DNA from: Sphingobacteriaceae bacterium
GTDB taxonomy: Bacteria > Bacteroidota > Bacteroidia > Sphingobacteriales > Sphingobacteriaceae
Reading direction: 5' to 3'
Length of the DNA stretch: 64,000 nucleotides
Assembly (NCBI GenBank): GCA_947479815.1
Contig: CANKAT010000007.1
Location: forward strand, 1 to 64,000
In this document: one piece after another, positions 32,964-50,269 of the stretch
Position numbering within the stretch: the stretch's first letter is position 1
Layout of the letters: each line of letters starts with the position of its first letter
Notes under the pieces: model-generated
What the model saw: only the letters and a program-made list of their open reading frames with translations
What the model was told of the DNA's origin: nothing
The model's database searches: none
Translations under genes and position numbers: made by a program

Positions 32964-33522
32964 CAATGATCCAAGATCCAAGATCCAAGAACCAAGACAA
33001 TTCAGTGCTAATTTGAAATTTACAGTATTTCCCAAAATCTGACAACAGATAACAGACAACAGATAACAGAATCAAGAGCCAAGAACCAAGACAAAAGAAC
33101 CAAGACAATTCAGTGCTAATTTGAAATTTACAGTATTTTCCAAAATCTGCCAACAGATAACAGACAACAGATAACAGAATCAAGAGCCAGGAACCAAGAC
33201 AAAAGAACAAGGACAATTAACTGCTGATTTGAATTTAATTGTATTTTCCAAAATCTGACAACAGATAACAGACAACAGATAACAGAATCAAGAGCCAAGA
33301 ATCAAGATCCAAGAACCAAGACAAAAGAACAAGGACAATTAACTGCTGATTTGAATTTAATTGTATTTTCCAAAATCTGACAACAGATAACAGACTAATT
33401 AAAAATTACTGCAAAAAGTCTTTGTTCCTTGCTCTTTCCTCCTTTATCCTTTCAGCTCCTTACTTATAACTTATTACCTATAACTTATTACCTATAACTT
33501 ATTACTTATTACTTTCCCCACC
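32964..33522. repeat. Compound intergenic repeat: about four copies of a 108-bp unit with heptamer arrays (CCAAGAN, ACAGAYA), then an ACTTATT/ACCTATA heptamer run
   Basis: Core ATT(C/A)A(G/C)TGCT(A/G)ATTTGAA at about 33000, 33108, 33216 and 33338; last spacing is 108+14 bp, i.e. two extra heptamers. Confidence 0.9.
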
Positions 33523-35474: not shown

Positions 35475-35981
35475 ATGACTAAAATAGCCATTCGTCCGTG
35501 GGAACCTAAAGATGCCGATTGGCTATCTCAGAACTTCAATAATGAACATATTTGGAATAATTTAAGAGATTATATTCCACATCCCTATTCTATTGAGATC
35601 GCCGAAAATTTTATCACTGAACAGCAGGAATTAAATCCTACCCAAAATTTTCTTATTACCAGTGATTCTGAAAGAGTTGGAGGCATAGGTATTACTTTCC
35701 AAGAAGACATTTACAGGATGAATGTAGAGCTCGGTTATTGGATTTCAGAACCCAATTGGGGAAATGGATTTGCCAGTGATGCGGTTTGTACAATGGTGGA
35801 TTATGTGTTTGAGTCTTTTGCCATAAACAGAATTGTAGCCGAGGTTTTTGAATACAATCGTTCAAGTATGCGGGTACTGGAAAAAAACGGATTTGCATTA
35901 GAAAATGTGGCAAGAAAGGGCATTATTAAGAACAATATTTTACTGGATAATTATATCTGGGTTAAACAAAAAATTTATTAA
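35475..35981 (+). CDS. GNAT family N-acetyltransferase (RimJ/RimL-like)
   Basis: MTKIAIRPWEPKDADWL, ELGYWISEPNWGNGFASDAV, EVFEYNRSSMRVLEKNGF. Confidence 0.88.
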   Translation: MTKIAIRPWEPKDADWLSQNFNNEHIWNNLRDYIPHPYSIEIAENFITEQQELNPTQNFLITSDSERVGGIGITFQEDIYRMNVELGYWISEPNWGNGFASDAVCTMVDYVFESFAINRIVAEVFEYNRSSMRVLEKNGFALENVARKGIIKNNILLDNYIWVKQKIY

Positions 35982-35986
35982 TACGT

Positions 35987-36223
35987 ATGATCAAGAAGAA
36001 TATTGCCACAAACGAATTGGGGTTTGTTTTTAATCCATCCACTGGTGATTCTTTTACAACCAATCAAATTGCGGCGCAAATTCTGCAATGGATGAGAGAG
36101 CAACATGATATTGCTGAGATAAAAAAACGATTGTTAATGCACTATGAAGTAGCATCTTCTGTTGCCGAAAAAGATTTGGATGATTTTATTGCTTCATTAA
36201 AAGAGTTTAATTTATTGACATAA
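35987..36223 (+). CDS. PqqD-like small protein (possible RRE fold)
   Basis: 78 aa; GDSFTTNQIAAQILQWMREQHDIAEIKKRLLMHYEVASSVAEKDLDDFIASLKEFNLL resembles the PqqD family pattern. Confidence 0.65.
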   Translation: MIKKNIATNELGFVFNPSTGDSFTTNQIAAQILQWMREQHDIAEIKKRLLMHYEVASSVAEKDLDDFIASLKEFNLLT

Positions 36224-36240
36224 TTAATGGTTAAATCTGT

Positions 36241-37287
36241 ATGAAAGAAATTCCCTTGGTGATAGCTGTTACTGGTCTAAATGCCATTGATAGTCCTGGT
36301 CCCGGTGTAGCAGCAATAAGGGCTATTCGTGAAGGAATTGGTAGGCCTGTTCGAATCATTGGCTTAGCTTATGAAAACCTGGAGCCAGGAATCTATATGG
36401 ATGGTATATGCGACAAAACATATCTGATTTCATATCCTAACGCGGGCGAAGAAAAATTGTTTAGCATTATTAAGGATATTAATAATCATGAGAAAATAGA
36501 TGTTGTCATTCCAAATTTCGATGCAGAAATCCCCAATTTTATTGGAATTGAAAAAAGGCTATTGGAAATTGGCGTTAAAATGTTTATTCCTACAGCGGAA
36601 ATGTTTCAGGCACGAGATAAGCAAAAGCTATTTGATTTTGGAAAGCAATTTGGTTTATTAGTGCCCAGGGATAAGGTGATTTATCAGATTGGTGAACTAT
36701 CTTCTGTGGCAGAAGAATTTGGATACCCGCTAGTTATAAAAGGTAGATTTTATGAAGCTACTGTTGCTCATACGCTTGAGCAAGCGCAGAAAGCTTTTTA
36801 TAAGATTAGTGCTAAATGGGGTTTGCCCATTATTGTGCAGGAGTTTATCCAAGGAACCGAAATAAATATTGCTGCTTTGGGCAATGGCAAAGGGAATGCC
36901 CTTAGTATTATTCCAATGCGAAAATTATATATAACTGATAAAGGTAAAGCTTGGGCAGGCATAACCATTGAAGATGAGTCATTACTTGACATTGCACGTC
37001 AGTTTATGACCGCTACAAAATGGAGAGGAGGAATGGAATTGGAAATTATGCGTACGGCCAAAAACGAATTGTACATAATGGAAATAAATCCTCGTTTCCC
37101 AGCCTGGATTTATTTAAGTGTAGGTGCCGGGCAAAATCAGCCGGCTTCATTAGTAAAATTGGCATTGGGCGAAAAAGTATTGCCATTTTCGAACTATGAT
37201 GCGGGTAAATTATTTATCCGCTATTCTTGGGATATGATCGTAAACGTTTCCGATTTTCAACAATTCACAGCATTAGGACAATTATAA
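36241..37287 (+). CDS. ATP-grasp domain protein (CarB/PylC-like ligase)
   Basis: YPLVIKGRFYEA, IVQEFIQGTEINIAALGNGKG and MELEIMRTAKNELYIMEINPRFPAWIYLSV ATP-grasp features. Confidence 0.85.
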   Translation: MKEIPLVIAVTGLNAIDSPGPGVAAIRAIREGIGRPVRIIGLAYENLEPGIYMDGICDKTYLISYPNAGEEKLFSIIKDINNHEKIDVVIPNFDAEIPNFIGIEKRLLEIGVKMFIPTAEMFQARDKQKLFDFGKQFGLLVPRDKVIYQIGELSSVAEEFGYPLVIKGRFYEATVAHTLEQAQKAFYKISAKWGLPIIVQEFIQGTEINIAALGNGKGNALSIIPMRKLYITDKGKAWAGITIEDESLLDIARQFMTATKWRGGMELEIMRTAKNELYIMEINPRFPAWIYLSVGAGQNQPASLVKLALGEKVLPFSNYDAGKLFIRYSWDMIVNVSDFQQFTALGQL

Positions 37288-37292
37288 ATAGT

Positions 37293-38648
37293 ATGGAGAA
37301 ACTTAAATACGAAAGGCCATTCATAAAAAAGATGGTAGTGGGAATGCTGGAGAAATCTGGAACATCTTCTTCATCACAACCTGTTACACATATTGATGGG
37401 GTGTCTGTAAAAGAGCTGATAGCTCAATACGGATCTCCTTTATTTGTAATGAGCGAAAGACAAATACGTTCTAATTATCAGTCAGCGGTTCAGGCTTTCT
37501 CTACCCGCTATCCGAAAGTACAATTTGCCTGGAGTTACAAAACGCATTACAATAATGCTATTTGTAGAATTTTTCACCAAGAAGGAAGTTGGGCAGAGGT
37601 TGTGAGTGGATTTGAATATCGTAAAGCACTAAGCAATGGAGTTTCTGGTTCCAAAATCATTTTCAATGGTCCTGATAAATCTGATGAGGATCTTAGGTTG
37701 GCTGTTAGTAATGGTTCAATGATTCATATTGATCATCTGGAGGAATTATATGAACTAATTGCAATATGTAAAGAACTCGCAAAAAAAGCACAAGTAGCTA
37801 TTCGTGTAAATATGGATACTGGAGTATATCCTATTTGGGATCGCTTCGGTTTCAACTTTGAAAATGGTCAAGCATGGACTGCATTAGAAAAAATTAATGC
37901 AACAGAGGTTTTAGAGTTAACTGGTTTACACGCCCATATTGGCACCTATATGCTTAGCAGCACGGCTTATTCTATTGCCGCCAACAAACTCAGTGCGCTT
38001 GCTAAGCGATGCAAAGATGAGTTTGGAACAACTATTCATTACATTGATTTGGGTGGAGGTTTTCCTAGTGCCAATCCATTGAAAGGAAATTTTGGGGTAG
38101 TTAATATTCCATCTATAGATGAATTTGCTGATGCTATTACAACAGGTCTGCTTCAGGCTAATTTTTCAAAATCTGAATTACCCATGCTGATTCTTGAAAC
38201 AGGAAGGGCATTAGTGGATGATGCAGGATTTTTGCTTGGAACTGTATTGGCAAGTAAAAAACTAAGCGATGGAAGAAAAGCCACAATTATGGATTTTGGA
38301 GTCAATATTATGTTCACCTCCTTTTGGTATGATCACAAAATAAGTCCGGCTCAAGAAGTATCCGAATATCAGGAGGATGTGGTACTATATGGACCTCTTT
38401 GCATGAATATTGATATTATACGTGATTATATTAGTCTCCCATTATTGAATAGAGGCGATCATGTGGTGGTACATCGAGTAGGAGCCTATAATATGACACA
38501 GTGGATGCAGTTTATTGCAATGCGTCCGGCAATAGTGCTCATTGATTGTAATGGCGATACGCATATAATCAGAAAAAAAGAGGACCTTGCTTATTTAGAA
38601 ATGCAAGATCAAATACCTTTACATTTGCAGTCTATAGCCAGGCTTTGA
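37293..38648 (+). CDS. Fold-type III PLP-dependent decarboxylase (LysA/ornithine decarboxylase-like)
   Basis: FAWSYKTHYNNAICRIF (PLP lysine region), GLHAHIGTY, YIDLGGGFPS, LETGRALVDDAGFLLG; ATG 37293 follows the ATP-grasp stop. Confidence 0.9.
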   Translation: MEKLKYERPFIKKMVVGMLEKSGTSSSSQPVTHIDGVSVKELIAQYGSPLFVMSERQIRSNYQSAVQAFSTRYPKVQFAWSYKTHYNNAICRIFHQEGSWAEVVSGFEYRKALSNGVSGSKIIFNGPDKSDEDLRLAVSNGSMIHIDHLEELYELIAICKELAKKAQVAIRVNMDTGVYPIWDRFGFNFENGQAWTALEKINATEVLELTGLHAHIGTYMLSSTAYSIAANKLSALAKRCKDEFGTTIHYIDLGGGFPSANPLKGNFGVVNIPSIDEFADAITTGLLQANFSKSELPMLILETGRALVDDAGFLLGTVLASKKLSDGRKATIMDFGVNIMFTSFWYDHKISPAQEVSEYQEDVVLYGPLCMNIDIIRDYISLPLLNRGDHVVVHRVGAYNMTQWMQFIAMRPAIVLIDCNGDTHIIRKKEDLAYLEMQDQIPLHLQSIARL

Positions 38649-40834
38649 TGAAAGGATTTTCAAATATTGCCCTAAAGCAATTGGTCATAGAAGTATTGAA
38701 TAGTTATTCAATGCTTCTCTTTTCTACCAACTCCTGGGTAGGAGGTGCATTACTCATTGTTACTTTCTTTAGTCCCTTTGCTGGTTTGGTAGGCCTTATT
38801 TCAGTATTGATTTCAATTATGCTTGGTCGAATTGCAAATTCCGAGAAGTTGTTGAATCAGCCAGGACTATTTCACTTTAATGCCATTTGGATTGGATTGG
38901 GTATGGCAACCTTTTACAATAGTGGCTTTGCATTTTGGCTATTACTATTTTTAGCTGTATTCTTCTCGCTTTTACTTTCAACTTGGTTTGCTGAAAGGTT
39001 ATTTCCTAGAGGTCTTCCTTTTTTAGCGCTTCCCTTTATTATTAGTTTTTGGGTAGTAATTCTTGTATCTAGAGAGCTTAGCGCTATTGATCTAACTACA
39101 CGTAATATTTACTGGTTGAATAATATGTATGCCATTGGGGATAGCCATTTAATTAACTTTATTCTATTTTTCGAGAACCTTCCATTGCATCCACTAGTGC
39201 TTATTTTTTTCAAATCACTAAGTTCACTTTTATTTCAGGAGAATGTTTTCTCTGGCATTATCCTTTCTCTGATATTGCTTTTTCATAGTCGTATTTCCTT
39301 TCTACTTGTTGTTATGGGCTATGTAATTTCAATTTTATTCAATAATGTGGTGCATGCCTATGAGAATGGTCTAAATTATTATTTGTTTGGGAGTAATTTC
39401 ATTATGGTAACACTTGCCATTGGAAGTTTCTTCGCAATACCTTCAGTTTATTCATTTTTTTGGTCGATGCTAGCTGTTCCTTTATCTTTTCTGATGGCTA
39501 TTGCTCTGGGAAAAATAACAGCTCTACTAAATCTTCCTGTTTATTCATTGCCATTTTGTGTTGTGACAATTTTAATAGTTCATTTTTTTAATATCAGCAA
39601 AAACAGAGGAAGGGTCGTGATTACCCCAATACAGTTTTACTCACCTGAAAAAAATCTATATAATTATCTGAATGCAAAAAAACGTTTTTTTTATGATCAG
39701 TATTTTCGGTTTCAACTTCCATTCCTTGGCGAATGGATTGTTACCCAGGGTTATGATGGTGAAATTACACACAAAGGAGAATGGGCTAAAGCATTAGACT
39801 TTGTTATAGTTGATGGCCAAATGAAGACCTATTCTAAACCTGGTTTGGAACCCGACAATTTTTATTGTTTTAACAAACCTGTTTTAGCGCCTGCAGAAGG
39901 CTATGTGCAGGAAGTAGTTGACAATGTCGAAGACAATGAGGTTGGCACAATAAATAGAAAGGAAAACTGGGGAAATTCTATTGTGCTTAAACATTGTGAG
40001 GGCCTATATACTAAACTTTCACATTTGCGCAAGCGTTCAATAAAGGTCAAAGTAGGGGATTATGTTAAGCAGGGCGATATAATTGCTGCCTGTGGTAACT
40101 CTGGCCGCTCTCCAGAGCCTCATTTACATTTCCAAGTCCAGCCTACTCCATACATTGGAAGTAAAACTTTGGCTTATCCCATGAGTACTTATTCTATCAA
40201 ATCAAACGGTAAAGCACAAGTAATGGAGTTTGCAGTACCAACTGAAACCGATAGACTAAGTAATCTTACTATTCATTCAGATTTAGATGCTGCATTTAAT
40301 TTTCAGCCTGGATTTAGAATGAATGTGCATCAAGAAGGAACGGCTACTGATGCCAACTGGGAAGTGTATACCGATGCCTATAATAAAACTTATTTCTTTT
40401 GCCATTTAACCAAATCGGTCGCTTATTTTACTCGCGCCCTCCATTTTTTCTATTTCAATTCATTTTATGGCGATCATTCCAGTTTGCTTTATAAATTCTA
40501 TGTGAGTGCATATAAAATTGCGCTATTCGTTGAGCCTAGTCATTTGGTTAGAGACGAGTTTCCTCTTCAATTATCTCGATCAGGTTTTGGAAAGTGGATG
40601 CAGGACTTGATTGCTCCTTTTGGTATTTATCGCCATTTGGAGTATGAGTCTTCTAATACCTTGATCGATGGTGCCGCTTTTAATCAAGCTATAGAAGTTC
40701 ATTCAAGGCAGTATCTTTCTTCATTCAAGCATGAAATCAATAGCATTGATTGCACTATTACAATCAGTGATAAACTAATTTGCGCTTTCAGCTTTTTGCA
40801 GAAAGGCAAAAAAATAAATGTATTATGCAAATAA
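38648..40834 (+). CDS. Fusion of urea-transporter-like membrane domain and M23 metallopeptidase domain
   Basis: N-terminal VLNSYSMLLFSTNSWVGGALLIVTFFSPFAGLVGL and GLFHFNAIWIGLGM resemble urea transporters; C-terminal APAEGYVQEVVDN, YTKLSHLRKRSIKVKVGDYVKQGDIIAACGNSGRSPEPHLHFQVQ is M23; TGATG overlap with the upstream gene. Confidence 0.82.
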   Translation: MKGFSNIALKQLVIEVLNSYSMLLFSTNSWVGGALLIVTFFSPFAGLVGLISVLISIMLGRIANSEKLLNQPGLFHFNAIWIGLGMATFYNSGFAFWLLLFLAVFFSLLLSTWFAERLFPRGLPFLALPFIISFWVVILVSRELSAIDLTTRNIYWLNNMYAIGDSHLINFILFFENLPLHPLVLIFFKSLSSLLFQENVFSGIILSLILLFHSRISFLLVVMGYVISILFNNVVHAYENGLNYYLFGSNFIMVTLAIGSFFAIPSVYSFFWSMLAVPLSFLMAIALGKITALLNLPVYSLPFCVVTILIVHFFNISKNRGRVVITPIQFYSPEKNLYNYLNAKKRFFYDQYFRFQLPFLGEWIVTQGYDGEITHKGEWAKALDFVIVDGQMKTYSKPGLEPDNFYCFNKPVLAPAEGYVQEVVDNVEDNEVGTINRKENWGNSIVLKHCEGLYTKLSHLRKRSIKVKVGDYVKQGDIIAACGNSGRSPEPHLHFQVQPTPYIGSKTLAYPMSTYSIKSNGKAQVMEFAVPTETDRLSNLTIHSDLDAAFNFQPGFRMNVHQEGTATDANWEVYTDAYNKTYFFCHLTKSVAYFTRALHFFYFNSFYGDHSSLLYKFYVSAYKIALFVEPSHLVRDEFPLQLSRSGFGKWMQDLIAPFGIYRHLEYESSNTLIDGAAFNQAIEVHSRQYLSSFKHEINSIDCTITISDKLICAFSFLQKGKKINVLCK

Positions 40835-41994
40835 AAAGACTGATCTATACACTTTTAGCGATGATTATTTATACTTCTGCATTTGCGCAGGAAATTTCAA
40901 GTTTGCAGGCCGCTAATGCAACTTCACTTCAGCTTTATAACCAGTATCAATGGACTGACTTGTTGAAATTTGGAAAAAATAGTATTGACTCAGGCATAGA
41001 TTTTCCATTGTTACGTATGCGAACTGGGTATGCTGCTTTTATGCTTGGTAATTATAGTGAAAGTATGCGCCAATACGAAAGTGTTTATCTTGCTGATAAT
41101 AAAAATGAAATATCAATTTACTATCTCTATTTAAATAATCTTTTACTCAATAATTTGCAAAGTGCACGTTATTATGCTTCACTACTTGGCGAATCTGTTC
41201 GAAAAGAAAATGGTATCATCCCATTTAAGGTTTCTCAACTAGATGTAGAGTTTAGCCAGAAGAGGGCAGATGCTAGTTATCGAGGCGATGCAAGTTATAC
41301 TCGTTTTGGGTTAACAACCTTGCTAGGGTATAAGATGACACTGCATCAATCGGTGGCATTTTTTAATCAGATGATTAACGAACCCGCATTAACCAACGTT
41401 ATTAATAATAATGCCATAAATAATAATCAAAAAGAGTACTATGCCAAAGCAGATATAGCGATTTCTGGAAATCTTACTTTTCTTGGGGGACTCCATTATT
41501 TAAATACTCCTTTCAATAACCTTTTATATCATAATTTCGTAGGTTTTGGAGGGTTTAATTATGCTGGAAAGCTGATCCAGTTAAAGGGTTTGCTTCAAGT
41601 AGGAACAATTAGGTCTGCATCTTTTAAACAATTTGATGCGGTTCTTACTACGTATCCTTTAGGTAATACTAAACTTTATACAGTTTCCAGAGCAGCTTTT
41701 GCTAACGATTTAGCGCTAACTCAAGTGCTGGGTTATTCACCGGTTAAAAGAGTATGGCTTGAAGGAAATGCCACGATTGGTTCCTACCGAACGATGCTGA
41801 ATAATGATGCAATGTATCTTTATGATGATATTGATTTAAAAAAATCAAGGTATGGGGCGAGTGTTTATCTTTCATTGGGTACAAAATTAATGCTGCGTAT
41901 GAATTACACACATGATGTGAAAATTCGATACGGAAGTTCTACTATTTTATATAATCAACAATCAATCACAGGAGGTTTACAATGCAATTTCTAA
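40825..41994 (+). CDS. Putative outer-membrane beta-barrel protein with N-terminal TPR-like region
   Basis: Signal peptide MQIKRLIYTLLAMIIYTSAFAQ; C-terminal alternating amphipathic strands ending NQQSITGGLQCNF. Confidence 0.65.
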   Translation: MQIKRLIYTLLAMIIYTSAFAQEISSLQAANATSLQLYNQYQWTDLLKFGKNSIDSGIDFPLLRMRTGYAAFMLGNYSESMRQYESVYLADNKNEISIYYLYLNNLLLNNLQSARYYASLLGESVRKENGIIPFKVSQLDVEFSQKRADASYRGDASYTRFGLTTLLGYKMTLHQSVAFFNQMINEPALTNVINNNAINNNQKEYYAKADIAISGNLTFLGGLHYLNTPFNNLLYHNFVGFGGFNYAGKLIQLKGLLQVGTIRSASFKQFDAVLTTYPLGNTKLYTVSRAAFANDLALTQVLGYSPVKRVWLEGNATIGSYRTMLNNDAMYLYDDIDLKKSRYGASVYLSLGTKLMLRMNYTHDVKIRYGSSTILYNQQSITGGLQCNF

Positions 41995-42605
41995 CAAAAA
42001 CAATCGGTCTATTTTTTCTGGTCATAGTTATGGCTATGGGGGCTAATGCCCAAAATCAAGAACAGTTGCAGGGGGCTTTCCGCGAAAGTTATCAAGCAGA
42101 ATTTAAAGGCGATTGGGATAAAGCTATAGCCCCTATCCGCAAAATTTATAAGGAAGATAATTATGAACTCAATCTCCGTTTAGGATGGCTTACGTATAGC
42201 CAGCGTAAGTATGATCAGGCAATGGAGTATTATCAAAAAGCAGCCAATCAGAAAAAGTACAGTGTTGAAGCTCGATCTGGTTTTGCTACCGCAGCAACAG
42301 CTGCCAAACAATATGATAAGGCCTATATCAAGTATGAGGAGATCTTGAAAATTGATCCTTACAACTCTGTTGCTAACTATTTGGTGGGCGTTCATTATTA
42401 TTATGTTAAGAAATATGATACTGCCGCAAAATATTTTGAGTTGGTAGTTAATATGTATCCCTTTGACTATGATGCAAATCATATGCTGGCATGGTCTTAT
42501 TTTTATCTTGGTAAAATAGATCAAGCAAAAATTTTATTCCAAAAGGCGCTTTTAAATAGGCCGGATGATGCTTCTGCAAAAGATGGATTAACAAAGTGTA
42601 AATAA
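41982..42605 (+). CDS. TPR-repeat secreted/periplasmic protein
   Basis: Signal peptide ending GANAQ; repeats AMEYYQKAANQ, AYIKYEEILKIDPYNSVANYLVG, AKILFQKALLNRPDDASAKDGL. Confidence 0.82.
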   Translation: MQFLTKTIGLFFLVIVMAMGANAQNQEQLQGAFRESYQAEFKGDWDKAIAPIRKIYKEDNYELNLRLGWLTYSQRKYDQAMEYYQKAANQKKYSVEARSGFATAATAAKQYDKAYIKYEEILKIDPYNSVANYLVGVHYYYVKKYDTAAKYFELVVNMYPFDYDANHMLAWSYFYLGKIDQAKILFQKALLNRPDDASAKDGLTKCK

Positions 42606-42612
42606 TTTACAA

Positions 42613-43461
42613 TTGCCTCTTAGAAATATATCAGATACTGCCCTTTGGGTAGCCGTTTACCGGGCCGATGAAACGGAGAGAGCTGATGCTATTTTCATTG
42701 ATAAATATGCCCGTAGTTTAGCAGGTAAGAGAGGAGAGTCCATTGTGCAGGCAATGCAAAATGGCAGAAAAAATAGTTGGTCTTTTGTTGCACGCACTTA
42801 TTTGTTTGATAAAATAATTCAGGAAACGGTTAAGAATGGCGTGCAGCAAGTAATCAATCTTGCATCAGGTCTTGATACTCGCCCTTATCGTTTAGAACTT
42901 CCCTCTGAATTAAAGTGGATTGATGTTGATCTTCCAGAAATTATAAATTATATGGATGCTGAGATGGCGGGGATTGCTCCTGTATGTGAAGTTGAGCGAA
43001 TAGCATTAGATCTTTCTTTGCGTACTGAGCGGCGCGAGCTTTTTGAAAATTTAGCAGCAAGAAAGCTAAAAACCCTAGTTGTAGCAGAAGGTTTGGTAGG
43101 GTATCTTTCTGAAAAAGATGCCAGTACACTTTCCTATGACCTTTCTCATACCTTGTCTTTTGATTTCTTTTTATTGGATTTGATGTCTCCTGGCATTTTG
43201 CCATTAATTAATGCAGAGATGGGTTCGCTGCTCATTGATGCCAACTCAACACTTGTTTTTGCCCCCGAAGAAGGAGAGGATTTTTTCCGGCTATTTGGGT
43301 GGAATCCAGTTGCTTCGCACTCCAAGTTTAAAACAGCAGCATTGCTTAATCGTTTGCCCGACTCACTTCTGCAGTATGCTAATAAGCCCGAACCTGAAGG
43401 ACCTAAAGGAGATTTTCCATGGTCGGGGGTTTGTTTATTTAATAATATCTTGTTTAGATAA
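42613..43461 (+). CDS. Leucine carboxyl methyltransferase-like (LCMT/PPM1 family) SAM methyltransferase
   Basis: ARTYLFDKIIQETVKNGVQQVINLASGLDTRPYRLELPSELKWIDVDLPEII, VVAEGLVGYLSEKDA; TTG start. Confidence 0.85.
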   Translation: MPLRNISDTALWVAVYRADETERADAIFIDKYARSLAGKRGESIVQAMQNGRKNSWSFVARTYLFDKIIQETVKNGVQQVINLASGLDTRPYRLELPSELKWIDVDLPEIINYMDAEMAGIAPVCEVERIALDLSLRTERRELFENLAARKLKTLVVAEGLVGYLSEKDASTLSYDLSHTLSFDFFLLDLMSPGILPLINAEMGSLLIDANSTLVFAPEEGEDFFRLFGWNPVASHSKFKTAALLNRLPDSLLQYANKPEPEGPKGDFPWSGVCLFNNILFR

Positions 43462-45874: not shown

Positions 45875-47455
45875 TCACTCCACATAACCCTGTCCATAAA
45901 GTGCTTTTCCACTTCTGGTACCTAAGTGTTTTTCGTTTTCAACCACTAACTCACCATTCACAATTACATATTTAAACCCTTTAGAGTAGGCATGTGGTTT
46001 TTGAAAGGTAGCCATGTCATTTACTTCTGATTCACTGAATATCACGATATCAGCAGCATAATTTGAGAGTAACAGGCCTCTATCATTTAACCCAAATTTT
46101 TGTGCAGCTAATGAGGTCATCCTGCGAATTGCATCCTCCATTGAAAGTACTTTTTCATCTCTGACATATTTGCCTAAAACCCTTGCATTGGAACCATATC
46201 CACGGGGGTGTGGCATTCCGCGCCCAGGTACAGGAACTCCAGCATCAGCACCAAACATACTGAATGGATATTGCATGATGTTTTTCACATCAACTTCATT
46301 CATGCTGTTGTAAACCATTTGGGCACCTCCTTTTTCAACCATATCCATAATGGTCTCGGCTTCAAATTTAACTTTTGCCTTTCTACCCATCAGCTTATTT
46401 ATTTCAGAGATATTTTTTCCATTGTAACTGGTATCTGAAGGATAGTTGGCTACAACTGCATAGCTGTAATTAGGAAATTTATAGCCTGCTAACTGCTGTA
46501 ACATTTCCTTTTTGATCTGTGCCCGTACAACTGGGTTGTTCAAACGCACTTTCATACTATCGTTTCCGCCTGCAAATGCCCAGTCTGGTAATCGTATTCC
46601 CAGATTTGTGCTGCTTGCGGTGTATGGATATTGGTCAATCGTAACATCCCATCCTTCAAGGCGGGCTTGTTTTACTAAGCCAAGGGTAATGTTTGATTTA
46701 CCCCAATTTGATTTACCACCTATCTTAAAGTGGGATATTTGTACAGGAATATTTGCTTCCTTTCCAATATTAATCGCCTCATTTACGGCATCAACCGCAC
46801 TGTTTTCCTCGTTTCGTATATGAGATGCATAAACACCCTTATACTTTCCTGCTGCTTTAGCCAGTCCGCTAACCTCTTCCGTTTTGGCGAATGTACCTGG
46901 GATATAGATCAATCCTGTAGACAAACCAACAGCACCTTGTTTCATTGCTTGTTCTACCAGACTTTCCATCTTTTTTTGTTCCAGTTCTGTGGGTGTTCTG
47001 TTATCTCTGTTCATGACTTGTGCTCGGACGGTATTGTGCCCGAATAGAGTCGCAACATTAATAGAAGGTCTTATTGTATTAATTTCTTGAAAAAAAGATC
47101 CAATATTTTCAGCTGACCCTCCGCAATTACCAGTAATAACTGTTGTTACGCCATCAAAAATATAGTTATTAGCTGTGGGAGTTTCGGTAATACCCCCTTC
47201 AATATGCCCATGAACATCAATAAAACCGGGGGCCACGATCAAGCCTTTGGCATCAATGGTTTTTTTTGCCTGAATATCAGTTATATGTCCAGTTTTGATG
47301 ATTTTACCATCTTTCACTGCCAAATCACCATAATACCAAGAATTTCCTGTGCCGTCATAAATTTTTCCATTTCGAATAAGCAGATCTGCGATTGTTTGTC
47401 CAGTTACAACAAATGAGCAAAAAAATAGTGAACCCAGTAGAAAGATTAGTTTCAT
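45875..47455 (-). CDS. D-aminoacylase / N-acyl-D-amino-acid deacylase family amidohydrolase
   Basis: LIVAPGFIDVHGHIEGG, GITGNCGGS-like VITGNCGGSAENIG, GAVGLSTGLIYIPGTFAKTEE, YASHIRNEEN. Confidence 0.87.
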   Translation of the reverse strand: MKLIFLLGSLFFCSFVVTGQTIADLLIRNGKIYDGTGNSWYYGDLAVKDGKIIKTGHITDIQAKKTIDAKGLIVAPGFIDVHGHIEGGITETPTANNYIFDGVTTVITGNCGGSAENIGSFFQEINTIRPSINVATLFGHNTVRAQVMNRDNRTPTELEQKKMESLVEQAMKQGAVGLSTGLIYIPGTFAKTEEVSGLAKAAGKYKGVYASHIRNEENSAVDAVNEAINIGKEANIPVQISHFKIGGKSNWGKSNITLGLVKQARLEGWDVTIDQYPYTASSTNLGIRLPDWAFAGGNDSMKVRLNNPVVRAQIKKEMLQQLAGYKFPNYSYAVVANYPSDTSYNGKNISEINKLMGRKAKVKFEAETIMDMVEKGGAQMVYNSMNEVDVKNIMQYPFSMFGADAGVPVPGRGMPHPRGYGSNARVLGKYVRDEKVLSMEDAIRRMTSLAAQKFGLNDRGLLLSNYAADIVIFSESEVNDMATFQKPHAYSKGFKYVIVNGELVVENEKHLGTRSGKALYGQGYVE

Positions 47456-47514
47456 GTTTTAATTGTTAAAAACCTAGTAAAAATGTAAGATTTATGCAGA
47501 TTATTTAGTGTAGT

Positions 47515-48834
47515 TTATAAAAATGTATTTAAGGTTAATACTCCAAATAATCCCATAATGCCTACAATAGTTTCCATTATGCTCCATGTTTTAAAAGTAT
47601 CCTTAATACTTAATCCAAAATATTCTTTAAAAATCCAGAATCCGGTATCATTTACATGAGAACACATTAAGCTACCGGCACCAATAGAGAGTACCATTAG
47701 CTCAGGGCTCACTTGCATAGGCCCAATCAAGGGTTGTACAATTCCTGCTGCAGTTAATCCTGCAACTGTTGCAGAGCCCACTGCAATTCTTAGCAGCGTA
47801 GCAATTAACCAGCCCAGTAAAAGTGGCGATAAGGTGGAATCTTTAAAAAATCCAACTATGGCATCACCTGTACCACTATCCATTAATATTTGTTTAAAAG
47901 CACCACCAGCTGCAATTAGCATGAGTATGGTGGTAACTGCATTTAAGGATAAAGCTGATTTATCTATTAAAGTTTTCATTTTAATTCCTCTTGCAATACC
48001 CAAAACAAAGATGGCAATCAACAATGCAAGTAACATGGCAATGCCCGGTTCGCCAATGAACTGAAGCATTTTTGTAATGGAAGATGTTGCAGGCAATAAT
48101 AAAGTACTTGCCGTAGCAAAACCCATCAAAATAACCGGTATTAGTGCTACGATGACACTGGTATTGAACCCAGGCATTTCATTGGCTTCAAAATGTTTTA
48201 TGTTAAAAATTTCTTTAGGTGGGTTAGCTTTGATTTTTTTAATAAACTCAGGAAAAACTAATCCGGCTATGCATATTGCTGGAATAGATACCAGGGTTCC
48301 ATACCATAATGTTTTTCCAATATCTGCTTTAAATATAATCGCTATGGTGCTCGGTCCTGGATGCGGGGGTAAAAAACCATGGGTTACAGAAAGGGCACTG
48401 GTTAATGCAATACCTAAATAAACCAGAGGCTGTCCAGTATTTTTGGCCACAGAAAATACCAAGGGTATTAATATGATAAAACCTGCATTATAAAACATTG
48501 CAATGCCTACTATGAAGCCAGTTAAAGCCATTGCGATTTTTATTCTTTTTACTCCAAATAAATTTACTAGGCCAATACTTATTCTTTGGGCGGCACCTGT
48601 TTCAGAAAGCACACTTCCGAATAAAACGCCAAAACCTAAAATTAATAAGGTCGATCCAAGTGTACTCCCAATGCCATTACTGATAGATTTTACAATAGTT
48701 GATAATACCATTGAATTGCACAATCCTACAAACAGCGTTGAGATAATCAAGGCCGTAAAGGCATTTAATTTTACAACCAGTATGAGTAGTAAAAGCAGTA
48801 GTATGGAAGAACAGAGGATTAGTATAGGTATCAC
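47515..48834 (-). CDS. GntP family permease (gluconate/D-serine type)
   Basis: Many TM segments; GFLPPHPGPSTIAIIF, GSATVAGLTAAGIVQPL, SHVNDTGFWIFKEYFGLS. Confidence 0.92.
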   Translation of the reverse strand: MIPILILCSSILLLLLLILVVKLNAFTALIISTLFVGLCNSMVLSTIVKSISNGIGSTLGSTLLILGFGVLFGSVLSETGAAQRISIGLVNLFGVKRIKIAMALTGFIVGIAMFYNAGFIILIPLVFSVAKNTGQPLVYLGIALTSALSVTHGFLPPHPGPSTIAIIFKADIGKTLWYGTLVSIPAICIAGLVFPEFIKKIKANPPKEIFNIKHFEANEMPGFNTSVIVALIPVILMGFATASTLLLPATSSITKMLQFIGEPGIAMLLALLIAIFVLGIARGIKMKTLIDKSALSLNAVTTILMLIAAGGAFKQILMDSGTGDAIVGFFKDSTLSPLLLGWLIATLLRIAVGSATVAGLTAAGIVQPLIGPMQVSPELMVLSIGAGSLMCSHVNDTGFWIFKEYFGLSIKDTFKTWSIMETIVGIMGLFGVLTLNTFL

Positions 48835-48902
48835 TCTATTAAGTTTTAGTAAAAAAAACTGTATGTGTCAATCTATTCACACCACCCCAATTTTTCGTAT
48901 AA

Positions 48903-50177
48903 TTAATCTTTAATGGCCTGATAAGTTAATGCCCTAAACTTTTCAACTACCTCATTATGTGTTCTTGCCTGCAATTGTCTAAAAAACAGGTAAACCATTT
49001 TTTCTTTTGGATCTACCCAATAGGAGGTTGCAAATGCTCCTCCCCAATTAAATGTGCCAACCTGGGCGGGAGCACTTCCGCTATTTTGATCAGTAACTAC
49101 TCCGAATCCTAGTCCGAAGGTTCCACCAACATAAGGTACTCCTTCAATTTGATTAGTTGTCATCATTCTTACTGTATTGCGGCCTAATAATCTTTTGTTA
49201 TTGTAAACACCATTATTCAACAACATTTGAAGAAAAATACCATAATCATAAATGGTTGAACTTAAACCGGCACCGCCAGAGTAATAGGTATGTGGAACGA
49301 GCGGATAATTTGAATTTGCTAGACTGTTTAACATTCCTGCATTTGCTTTCACTAATTTTCCTTGAGGTGTTTCAGTGTATAGATTTACTAAACGACCAGC
49401 TTTACTTGCAGGGATATTGAAATAGGTATCTTTCATACCCAATGGTTCGAATATGCGGGTTTTAAAAAATTCATCTAGACTTACACCAGAGATTATTTCA
49501 ACCAAACAACCCAAAACGTCGGTATTCAACCCATAGGTAAATTTTTCGCCCGGTTGGTGCATCAAGGGTAATTCACCAAGTTGGGTCATTGCCGAAAGCA
49601 ATGTTCTATCTTTTACACCCAAACCTGCAGTGATATTGTTTTTTGCATAGATTGCATTAGCCTCTTTTGAGCCTATTTGAGCATAGCCAAGGCCTGAGGT
49701 ATGAGTCAAAAGATCTTTTATAGTAACTTCTCTCTTTGCAGGAACTGTGGTATAGCTTGTATCTTTTGCATTAAAGTTAACCAAGACATTTTGTTTTTTA
49801 AATGAAGGAATATACAATGAAACAGGATCAGTAAGCAATAATTTTCCTTCATCAAAAAGCATCATAATAGCAACACTTGTGATCGCCTTGGTTTGTGAGG
49901 CAATCCTAAAAATGCCTTCTTTCTGAAGTGGGGCTTTTGTATCCAGATCATTAAACCCAATAGCCTTATGGTAGGCAACCTTTCCATCGCGTATAATTAA
50001 AGCGGTTGCTCCGTTCATGTACCCTTTTTCAACCCAATCATTCATTGCAATATCCATGCGCTTTAGATGTTCTGCAGAGAATCCTGCTGCTTCTGGACCT
50101 GTATTCGTGATTGTTTGGCCAACAGTTTGAGTAATGGCAGAGCCGATTAGAATAAAAAATAAAATGTATTTCTTCAT
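48903..50177 (-). CDS. Serine hydrolase of the beta-lactamase class C / PBP-like family
   Basis: FRIASQTKAITSVAIMML (SxxK), YGLNTDVLG (YxN); signal peptide starts at internal MKKYILFFILIGS. Confidence 0.9.
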   Translation of the reverse strand: MKKYILFFILIGSAITQTVGQTITNTGPEAAGFSAEHLKRMDIAMNDWVEKGYMNGATALIIRDGKVAYHKAIGFNDLDTKAPLQKEGIFRIASQTKAITSVAIMMLFDEGKLLLTDPVSLYIPSFKKQNVLVNFNAKDTSYTTVPAKREVTIKDLLTHTSGLGYAQIGSKEANAIYAKNNITAGLGVKDRTLLSAMTQLGELPLMHQPGEKFTYGLNTDVLGCLVEIISGVSLDEFFKTRIFEPLGMKDTYFNIPASKAGRLVNLYTETPQGKLVKANAGMLNSLANSNYPLVPHTYYSGGAGLSSTIYDYGIFLQMLLNNGVYNNKRLLGRNTVRMMTTNQIEGVPYVGGTFGLGFGVVTDQNSGSAPAQVGTFNWGGAFATSYWVDPKEKMVYLFFRQLQARTHNEVVEKFRALTYQAIKD

Positions 50178-50269
50178 GATTAAATTTTTAATTATGCTAT
50201 AAATATATAAATATTGGTTCATTGAAAAATCGTCAATTACTCCCTACAAATTTTTTAATTAGTCAGTGA

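Follow-up and report, generated by a model that had tools for sequence, protein, structure and literature searches.

A conserved six-gene cassette of Bacteroidia with a candidate role in the PqqD-scaffolded biosynthesis and export of a metabolite

Eight consecutive plus-strand genes occupy positions 35475-43461 of a 64,000-nt stretch of contig CANKAT010000007.1 from a Sphingobacteriaceae bacterium (GenBank assembly GCA_947479815.1), hereafter called the window, and six of these genes recur together across the class Bacteroidia. In order, the eight encode a GNAT acetyltransferase, a PqqD-like protein of the RiPP recognition element type (RRE; RiPP, ribosomally synthesized and post-translationally modified peptide), an ATP-grasp ligase, a pyridoxal-phosphate (PLP) decarboxylase (DEC), a fusion of a urea-transporter (UT) domain with an M23 peptidase (UT-M23), an outer-membrane barrel protein, a TPR protein, and an LCMT-like methyltransferase (Table 1). 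All eight open reading frames (ORFs) are intact with one stop each, the biggest gap between them is 17 nt, and three junctions overlap: the DEC stop and the UT-M23 ATG share TGATG at 38646-38650, the start of the barrel gene overlaps the end of UT-M23 by 10 nt, and the start of the TPR gene overlaps the end of the barrel gene by 13 nt. A previous sequence-only reading had reported this run of plus-strand genes with its short gaps and overlaps, all of which are present, and Pfam agrees with its domain calls for GNAT, PqqD, ATP-grasp, Orn/DAP decarboxylase, UT plus M23, TPR, and LCM. The protein that it had called a putative barrel has no sequence match and was modelled by AlphaFold2 as a domain of TPR-like helices followed by a barrel of 14 strands, at a mean predicted local distance difference test score (pLDDT) of 94.6.

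Table 1. Genes, domains, and sites of the cassette region, with refined starts (ATG for DEC and UT-M23, TTG for LCMT)
Feature	Position	Strand	Basis
GNAT N-acetyltransferase, accessory, 168 aa	35475..35981	+	Pfam Acetyltransf_3 3e-25
PqqD-like discrete RRE, 78 aa	35987..36223	+	Pfam PqqD 2e-11
PqqD invariant residue N26	36062-36064	+	conservation, LppB spacing
PqqD conserved residue D63	36173-36175	+	conservation, LppB spacing
ATP-grasp ligase, carbamoyl-phosphate-synthase-like subfamily, 348 aa	36241..37287	+	Pfam ATPgrasp_Ter 2e-10, NCBIfam PRK12767 2e-30
Fold-type III PLP decarboxylase (DEC), 451 aa	37293..38648	+	Pfam Orn/DAP decarboxylase 1e-31
Leader-like N-terminal tail of DEC, residues 1-32	37293..37388	+	conservation
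DEC tail site Y6xxP9xI11	37308-37325	+	
DEC tail site K21 (also G17, G23)	37353-37355	+	
UT-M23 fusion, 728 aa counted from ATG	38648..40834	+	Pfam UT 6e-41, M23 3e-16
UT-family channel domain of UT-M23	38693..39580	+	Pfam UT, Foldseek
M23 metallopeptidase domain of UT-M23, predicted cytosolic	39719..40180	+	Pfam, charge count
C-terminal beta-rich domain of UT-M23	40262..40831	+	high-confidence AlphaFold2 model; no Pfam match
Outer-membrane protein: signal peptide, TPR-like helices, 14-strand barrel, 389 aa	40825..41994	+	AlphaFold2, Foldseek
TPR protein with signal peptide, probably periplasmic, 207 aa	41982..42605	+	Pfam TPR 7e-16
LCMT-like S-adenosylmethionine methyltransferase, accessory, 282 aa	42613..43461	+	Pfam LCM 5e-30

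Loci for comparison were picked by UT-M23 fusions in relatives or by DEC homologues from a class-wide and a family search, and the 104 loci with a cassette-type DEC were compared. The order PqqD, ATP-grasp, DEC, UT-M23, TPR/14-strand barrel, TPR is complete in 76 of them; most of the others are cut by a contig end, contain split ORFs, have the TPR or the barrel gene in another place, or lack the barrel. The sequence-only reading had staked its single cassette on homologues being syntenic in other genomes, and they are, with the unit amounting to six genes rather than eight. In other families of the class, these six stay in the same order and on the same strand, which is far more than chance would give, whereas among the loci whose neighbours were read, GNAT directly precedes PqqD in only 7 and LCMT lies nearby in only 5 (near relatives and, with the gene in divergent orientation, L107), so that both are regarded as clade accessories. 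DEC was present in 75 of 395 genomes of the class and in 46 of 196 genera, and the ATP-grasp gene accompanies it at nearly all DEC loci. Spacing is likewise conserved: PqqD and ATP-grasp are no more than 50 nt apart in 99 of 101 loci, and UT-M23 overlaps the barrel gene in 88 of 90 (with ORFs taken from the longest start). Near-identical copies occur in Sphingobacteriaceae assemblies of Daejeonella, Pedobacter, and Sphingobacterium, and the distribution is patchy within the window's own genus. Of 150 relatives searched, 127 genomes had some match, for the most part just an M23 domain, and roughly two dozen had a true UT-M23 fusion. Genome G116 has its biosynthetic half on one contig and UT-M23 on another.

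A fixed unit found in about a fifth of the sampled Bacteroidia genomes matches no characterised pathway that we could find. The sequence-only reading had recognised none, and the open-access literature yielded neither a characterised pathway nor a paper on this gene combination. The PqqD, ATP-grasp, DEC, and UT-M23 proteins reach no curated NCBIfam equivalog cut-off, and single-gene matches in haloarchaea, Lawsonia, and Rhizobium have no related cassette adjoining them wherever annotation exists. Seven proteins of the cassette region matched no PADLOC model, and a role in anti-phage defence was rejected on this result.

Variation among the loci includes three (L051, L131, and L178) in which the barrel gene is not recognisable and TPR directly follows UT-M23, and four in which a gene reads as two ORFs (UT-M23 in L059 and L139, DEC in L188 and L213), where sequencing error or decay is possible. 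A small AraC-type regulator of one family directly precedes PqqD in ten loci (L046, L047, L052, L114, L118, L127, L128, L132, L137, and L145), LytTR-type response regulators occupy that position in four others, and ECF-like (extracytoplasmic function) sigma factors are found nearby in some.

Every complete cassette DEC starts, ahead of the enzyme domain, with a tail of the form YxxPx[ILV]…KxG, typically MxKLxYERPxIxKLNxGxMNKFGTRTEYxP. Among 101 tails, P9, K21, and G23 are invariant and G17 is kept in 98; position 6 is Tyr in 85 and Phe in 16, and position 11 is always Ile, Leu, or Val. Alignments with the best solved DEC homologues begin at residue 26 or later, and that with a tail-less lysA-type paralogue on contig 43 of the same genome begins only at residue 81. 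Discrete RREs bind the motif [Y/W]xxPx[L/V/I/F/A] in lasso and related leaders, and in LppB, an RRE whose D70 forms a bond to the leader Tyr and whose N33 stabilises the kink at the leader Pro, D70A weakens binding and N33A nearly abolishes it (PMC13381572). The cassette PqqD carries N26 in 102 of 102 proteins and D63 in nearly all outside one clade, at a spacing of 37 residues that is the same as that of N33 and D70 in LppB. It shares with LppB and the B1 proteins of lasso-peptide and linear polyphosphorylated peptide systems the PF05402 fold, the Asn/Asp pair, and its spacing, and has likewise a YxxPx[ILV] target in its own operon; those systems, however, target a short precursor peptide, whereas the target here would be the tail of a decarboxylase, and the cassette has no cyclase or kinase. 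The two putative partners also change together, since in one family all 16 Phe6 DECs are paired with a PqqD lacking D63 (15 Tyr, 1 Phe) and 84 of the 85 Tyr6 DECs with a D63-bearing PqqD, a joint change that supports, without proving, contact between PqqD and the tail. On these conservation patterns, we predict with high confidence that PqqD binds the DEC tail; the helper protein of the sequence-only reading is PqqD-like, as it had said, with the DEC tail rather than a separate peptide as its likely partner.

An adjoining PqqD-like RRE and ATP-grasp gene would also be found if this were a classical RiPP cluster and its separate precursor gene had been overlooked. A search of the window's own genome for the tail motif matched only the DEC site, apart from one off-target match, and the cassette loci contain no second YxxPx[ILV] ORF of at least 60 aa, except for a chance-like match inside two UT-M23 proteins. 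All frames of the gaps between ATP-grasp and DEC were read by eye and contained no conserved small ORF; a DNA motif search of 396 genomes of the phylum with a stricter NKFG pattern was uninformative, as that pattern misses the window's own EKSG. Given the motif searches of genome and loci, in which ORFs below about 55-60 aa were screened in part, a separate precursor peptide was rejected, and we regard a classical RiPP cluster as very unlikely. Graspetide systems differ in that the cassette ATP-grasp is of the PRK12767, carbamoyl-phosphate-synthase-like type rather than the graspetide type, and no precursor with a repeated core was found.

The best solved relative of DEC is the N-citrylornithine decarboxylase FigC (7kh2), whose C354-M355 is matched by C370-M371 of DEC, a Cys-Met loop instead of Cys-Asp/Glu that is kept at 97% or more in an alignment of 60 proteins. 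The FigC Met stands where an acid would bind a free side-chain amine, and the substrates of FigC, SbnH, AcsE, MccE, and BtrK are citrylated, peptide-linked, or carrier-bound amino acids (PMC7857480). From the Cys-Met loop and its kinship with these enzymes, DEC is predicted to act, probably, on a conjugated amino acid, in which case the ATP-grasp ligase fits as the earlier, conjugating step. DEC is like this subfamily in sequence and in lacking the amine-binding acid, and it shares the Cys-Met loop with FigC; it differs in its unique tail and in the absence of an NIS (nonribosomal-peptide-synthetase-independent siderophore) synthetase of the IucA/IucC type from the cassette genes, and the cassette DECs are about 60% or more identical among themselves and far from FigC. 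The butirosin system BtrJ-BtrI-BtrK follows a shared logic, in which the ATP-grasp enzyme BtrJ loads an amino acid and a fold-III enzyme decarboxylates the loaded form. There, BtrK decarboxylates the amino acid bound to the carrier BtrI (PMC7857480); butirosin biosynthesis has an acyl carrier protein, whereas the cassette has none by Pfam and has an RRE instead.

The top-scoring NCBIfam model for DEC is lysA, which would suit an ordinary lysine or polyamine pathway beside a misplaced transporter, with DEC as LysA or an ornithine/arginine decarboxylase. The score of 226 bits is below the cut-off of 298, the genome has its separate lysA-type gene on contig 43, and Cys-Met stands in place of the acid, on which grounds a LysA or polyamine role was rejected; such a pathway would also leave the tail and the RRE unexplained, and we consider it extremely improbable.

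A plasmid of Streptomyces zaomyceticus encodes, in one chain, an ATP-grasp domain related to the cassette ligase (NPRFPAWI motif identical, GKxW motif similar) and a fold-III decarboxylase with the Cys-Met loop, without an RRE domain or tail, as would be expected if the role of PqqD and the tail is to tether the two enzymes to each other. The fusion gene (L148:4995-7271) lies beside an uncharacterised 195-aa gene and a fatty-acid desaturase gene.

The UT-M23 fusion was modelled at a pLDDT of 90, and in Foldseek its peptidase matched LytM domains and its channel matched dvUT (TM-score to target 0.83-0.88) and UT-B. The fold of the SLC14/UT urea channels is shared over the whole domain, and in this the transporter call of the sequence-only reading stands; the pore, in contrast, lacks the complete set of urea-binding residues. 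The equivalent of dvUT E187, the acidic urea ligand, is Ser in the window and Ala, Ser, Gly, or once Tyr in all 94 homologues, never Glu; Q24 is kept in 79 of 94, T130 and T294 are mostly Ser, and the equivalents of F27 and N244 are kept. Classical urea uptake was rejected on the loss of E187 and the absence of a urease gene from the cassette. Unlike those channels, the protein also carries a fused M23 domain and a new C-terminal domain. Residues H376, D385, H460, H493, and H495 of the M23 domain (numbered from a TTG at 38645) are invariant in 94 of 94 proteins, as in LytM/M23 peptidases, and the domain is predicted to be catalytically intact. Loop charges alternate as expected for the UT inverted repeat, with a mean of 3.25 Lys plus Arg after the last UT helix against 0.02-0.27 in the opposite-face loops. 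Because positive charge is strongest there, the M23 and C-terminal domains are predicted to lie in the cytosol, which agrees with Q68 and L364 of human UT-B being intracellular (PMC10541013). We consider this predicted cytosolic location likely, and it would set the domain apart from LytM/M23 peptidases and make it not an obvious peptidoglycan hydrolase. By analogy, the architecture resembles that of peptidase-containing ABC transporters, in which a cytosolic peptidase is fused to an inner-membrane exporter; these combine a C39 protease with an ABC pump, whereas UT-M23 combines an M23 domain with a passive channel fold.

In the plasmid collection, the closest M23 relatives that stand alone include proteins from haloarchaea, which lack murein. 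One of these proteins (L146:3542-4618) is apparently membrane-anchored and shares an FYCFxxPxLAPAxG signature. On a Natrialba magadii plasmid (L216:4953-11167), a lysA-type gene lies beside genes for NlpC/P60, a dipeptide epimerase, a serine hydrolase, and a D-aminoacylase, a set possibly used for murein peptides in an archaeon.

The signal peptide of the barrel protein was read from its sequence, and its closest Foldseek matches were OmpG, FadL, and CymA; BcsC, AlgE, and PelB matched less well. It shares with the TPR-barrel exporters (PgaA, BcsC, AlgE/AlgK, and PelB) the combination of periplasmic TPR units and an outer-membrane barrel, and the separate TPR gene is conserved in the cassette; it differs in its 14 strands and in being nearer to OmpG/CymA, and no glycosyltransferase or polysaccharide synthase of synthase-dependent export is among the cassette genes. 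Barrels of the OmpG/FadL/CymA kind are mostly uptake pores and UT-family proteins are passive channels, which would suit a salvage system in which barrel, TPR, and UT proteins import a small amide or peptide that M23 cuts inside the cell and the ATP-grasp and decarboxylase enzymes process. The set of ATP-grasp, RRE, and decarboxylase is, however, biosynthetic in character, and the cassette itself includes neither a TonB-dependent receptor nor a SusCD pair nor a urease gene; we view salvage as unlikely and lean towards export over import as the direction of transport.

Our preferred reading, to which we assign a probability of about one half, is that the six genes form a biosynthesis-and-export cassette of Bacteroidia organised around PqqD as a scaffold. 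The ATP-grasp ligase would form an amide-type bond between an amino acid and a partner, and DEC would strip the alpha-carboxylate from the conjugated amino acid to leave an amine. PqqD would grip the YxxPxI tail of DEC, as RREs of lasso peptides and their kin grip leaders, with the tail standing in for a separate precursor peptide and the ligase and decarboxylase thereby held together. The cytosolic M23 domain would trim or release the product, for which the altered urea-transporter channel would be the route over the inner membrane and the TPR/barrel pair that over the outer. The parts thus fit the proposal of the sequence-only reading that an amino-acid-derived product is assembled in the cytoplasm and passed over both membranes, with the M23 domain now predicted on the cytosolic side; we only infer the order of the steps and the nature of the product. 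If this reading is true, RREs, known from peptide-antibiotic pathways, would also serve to dock on an enzyme tail, and the urea-channel fold would have been reused with a built-in peptidase. The tail peptide, its putative 78-residue binder, and the two enzymes would make a simple test set for a new class of exported metabolite.

Several observations weigh against this reading. Co-transcription of the genes is deduced only from their spacing, and promoter and terminator scans gave no more than shuffled sequence did. The membrane part can stand alone, as genome G130 has UT-M23, TPR, and barrel genes and no detectable cassette DEC or ATP-grasp. The channel could import, UT channels being passive. 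On the DEC tree, the loss of Tyr6 is one change and that of D63 two, so that the Tyr6/Asp63 pairing traces to one historical event and is not statistically independent. The Streptomyces fusion is the sole case in the plasmid collection and is about 26% identical over the ATP-grasp part. Lastly, K21 and G23 are as strictly conserved as catalytic residues, which a role in docking alone does not need.

This strictness is the main reason for which a further explanation is kept alive, namely that the tail is itself the peptide being worked on, a leader (YxxPxI) and core (GxxNKFG) fused to the enzyme. PqqD would present the tail, ATP-grasp would load an amino acid at the putative site K21, DEC would decarboxylate it in cis or in trans, and the channel-built peptidase would cut off the product for export. 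The conservation of K21 and G23 (101/101) and of G17 (98/101) and the leader-plus-core order of the tail are in keeping with this, and M23 peptidases often cut at Gly. Decarboxylation of a carrier-bound amino acid is known for BtrK (PMC7857480). Consuming a catalytic enzyme as a precursor would nevertheless be costly, and the Streptomyces fusion of ATP-grasp and decarboxylase has no such tail; the idea that the RRE-bound DEC tail is an enzyme-fused carrier peptide is considered doubtful. If true, it would be a biosynthetic logic of which we found no earlier description in the open-access literature.

Two further features of the window lie outside the cassette. Beside it on the minus strand (45875-50222) are genes for a D-aminoacylase-like amidohydrolase, a GntP permease, and a beta-lactamase-family hydrolase; in the near relatives L037, L038, and L041, the amidohydrolase gene is likewise next to the cassette. 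Upstream, after a peptide-release-factor gene, four tandem repeat copies with a period of about 108 nt span 32968-33446 and are followed by 14-nt repeats (33446-33514).

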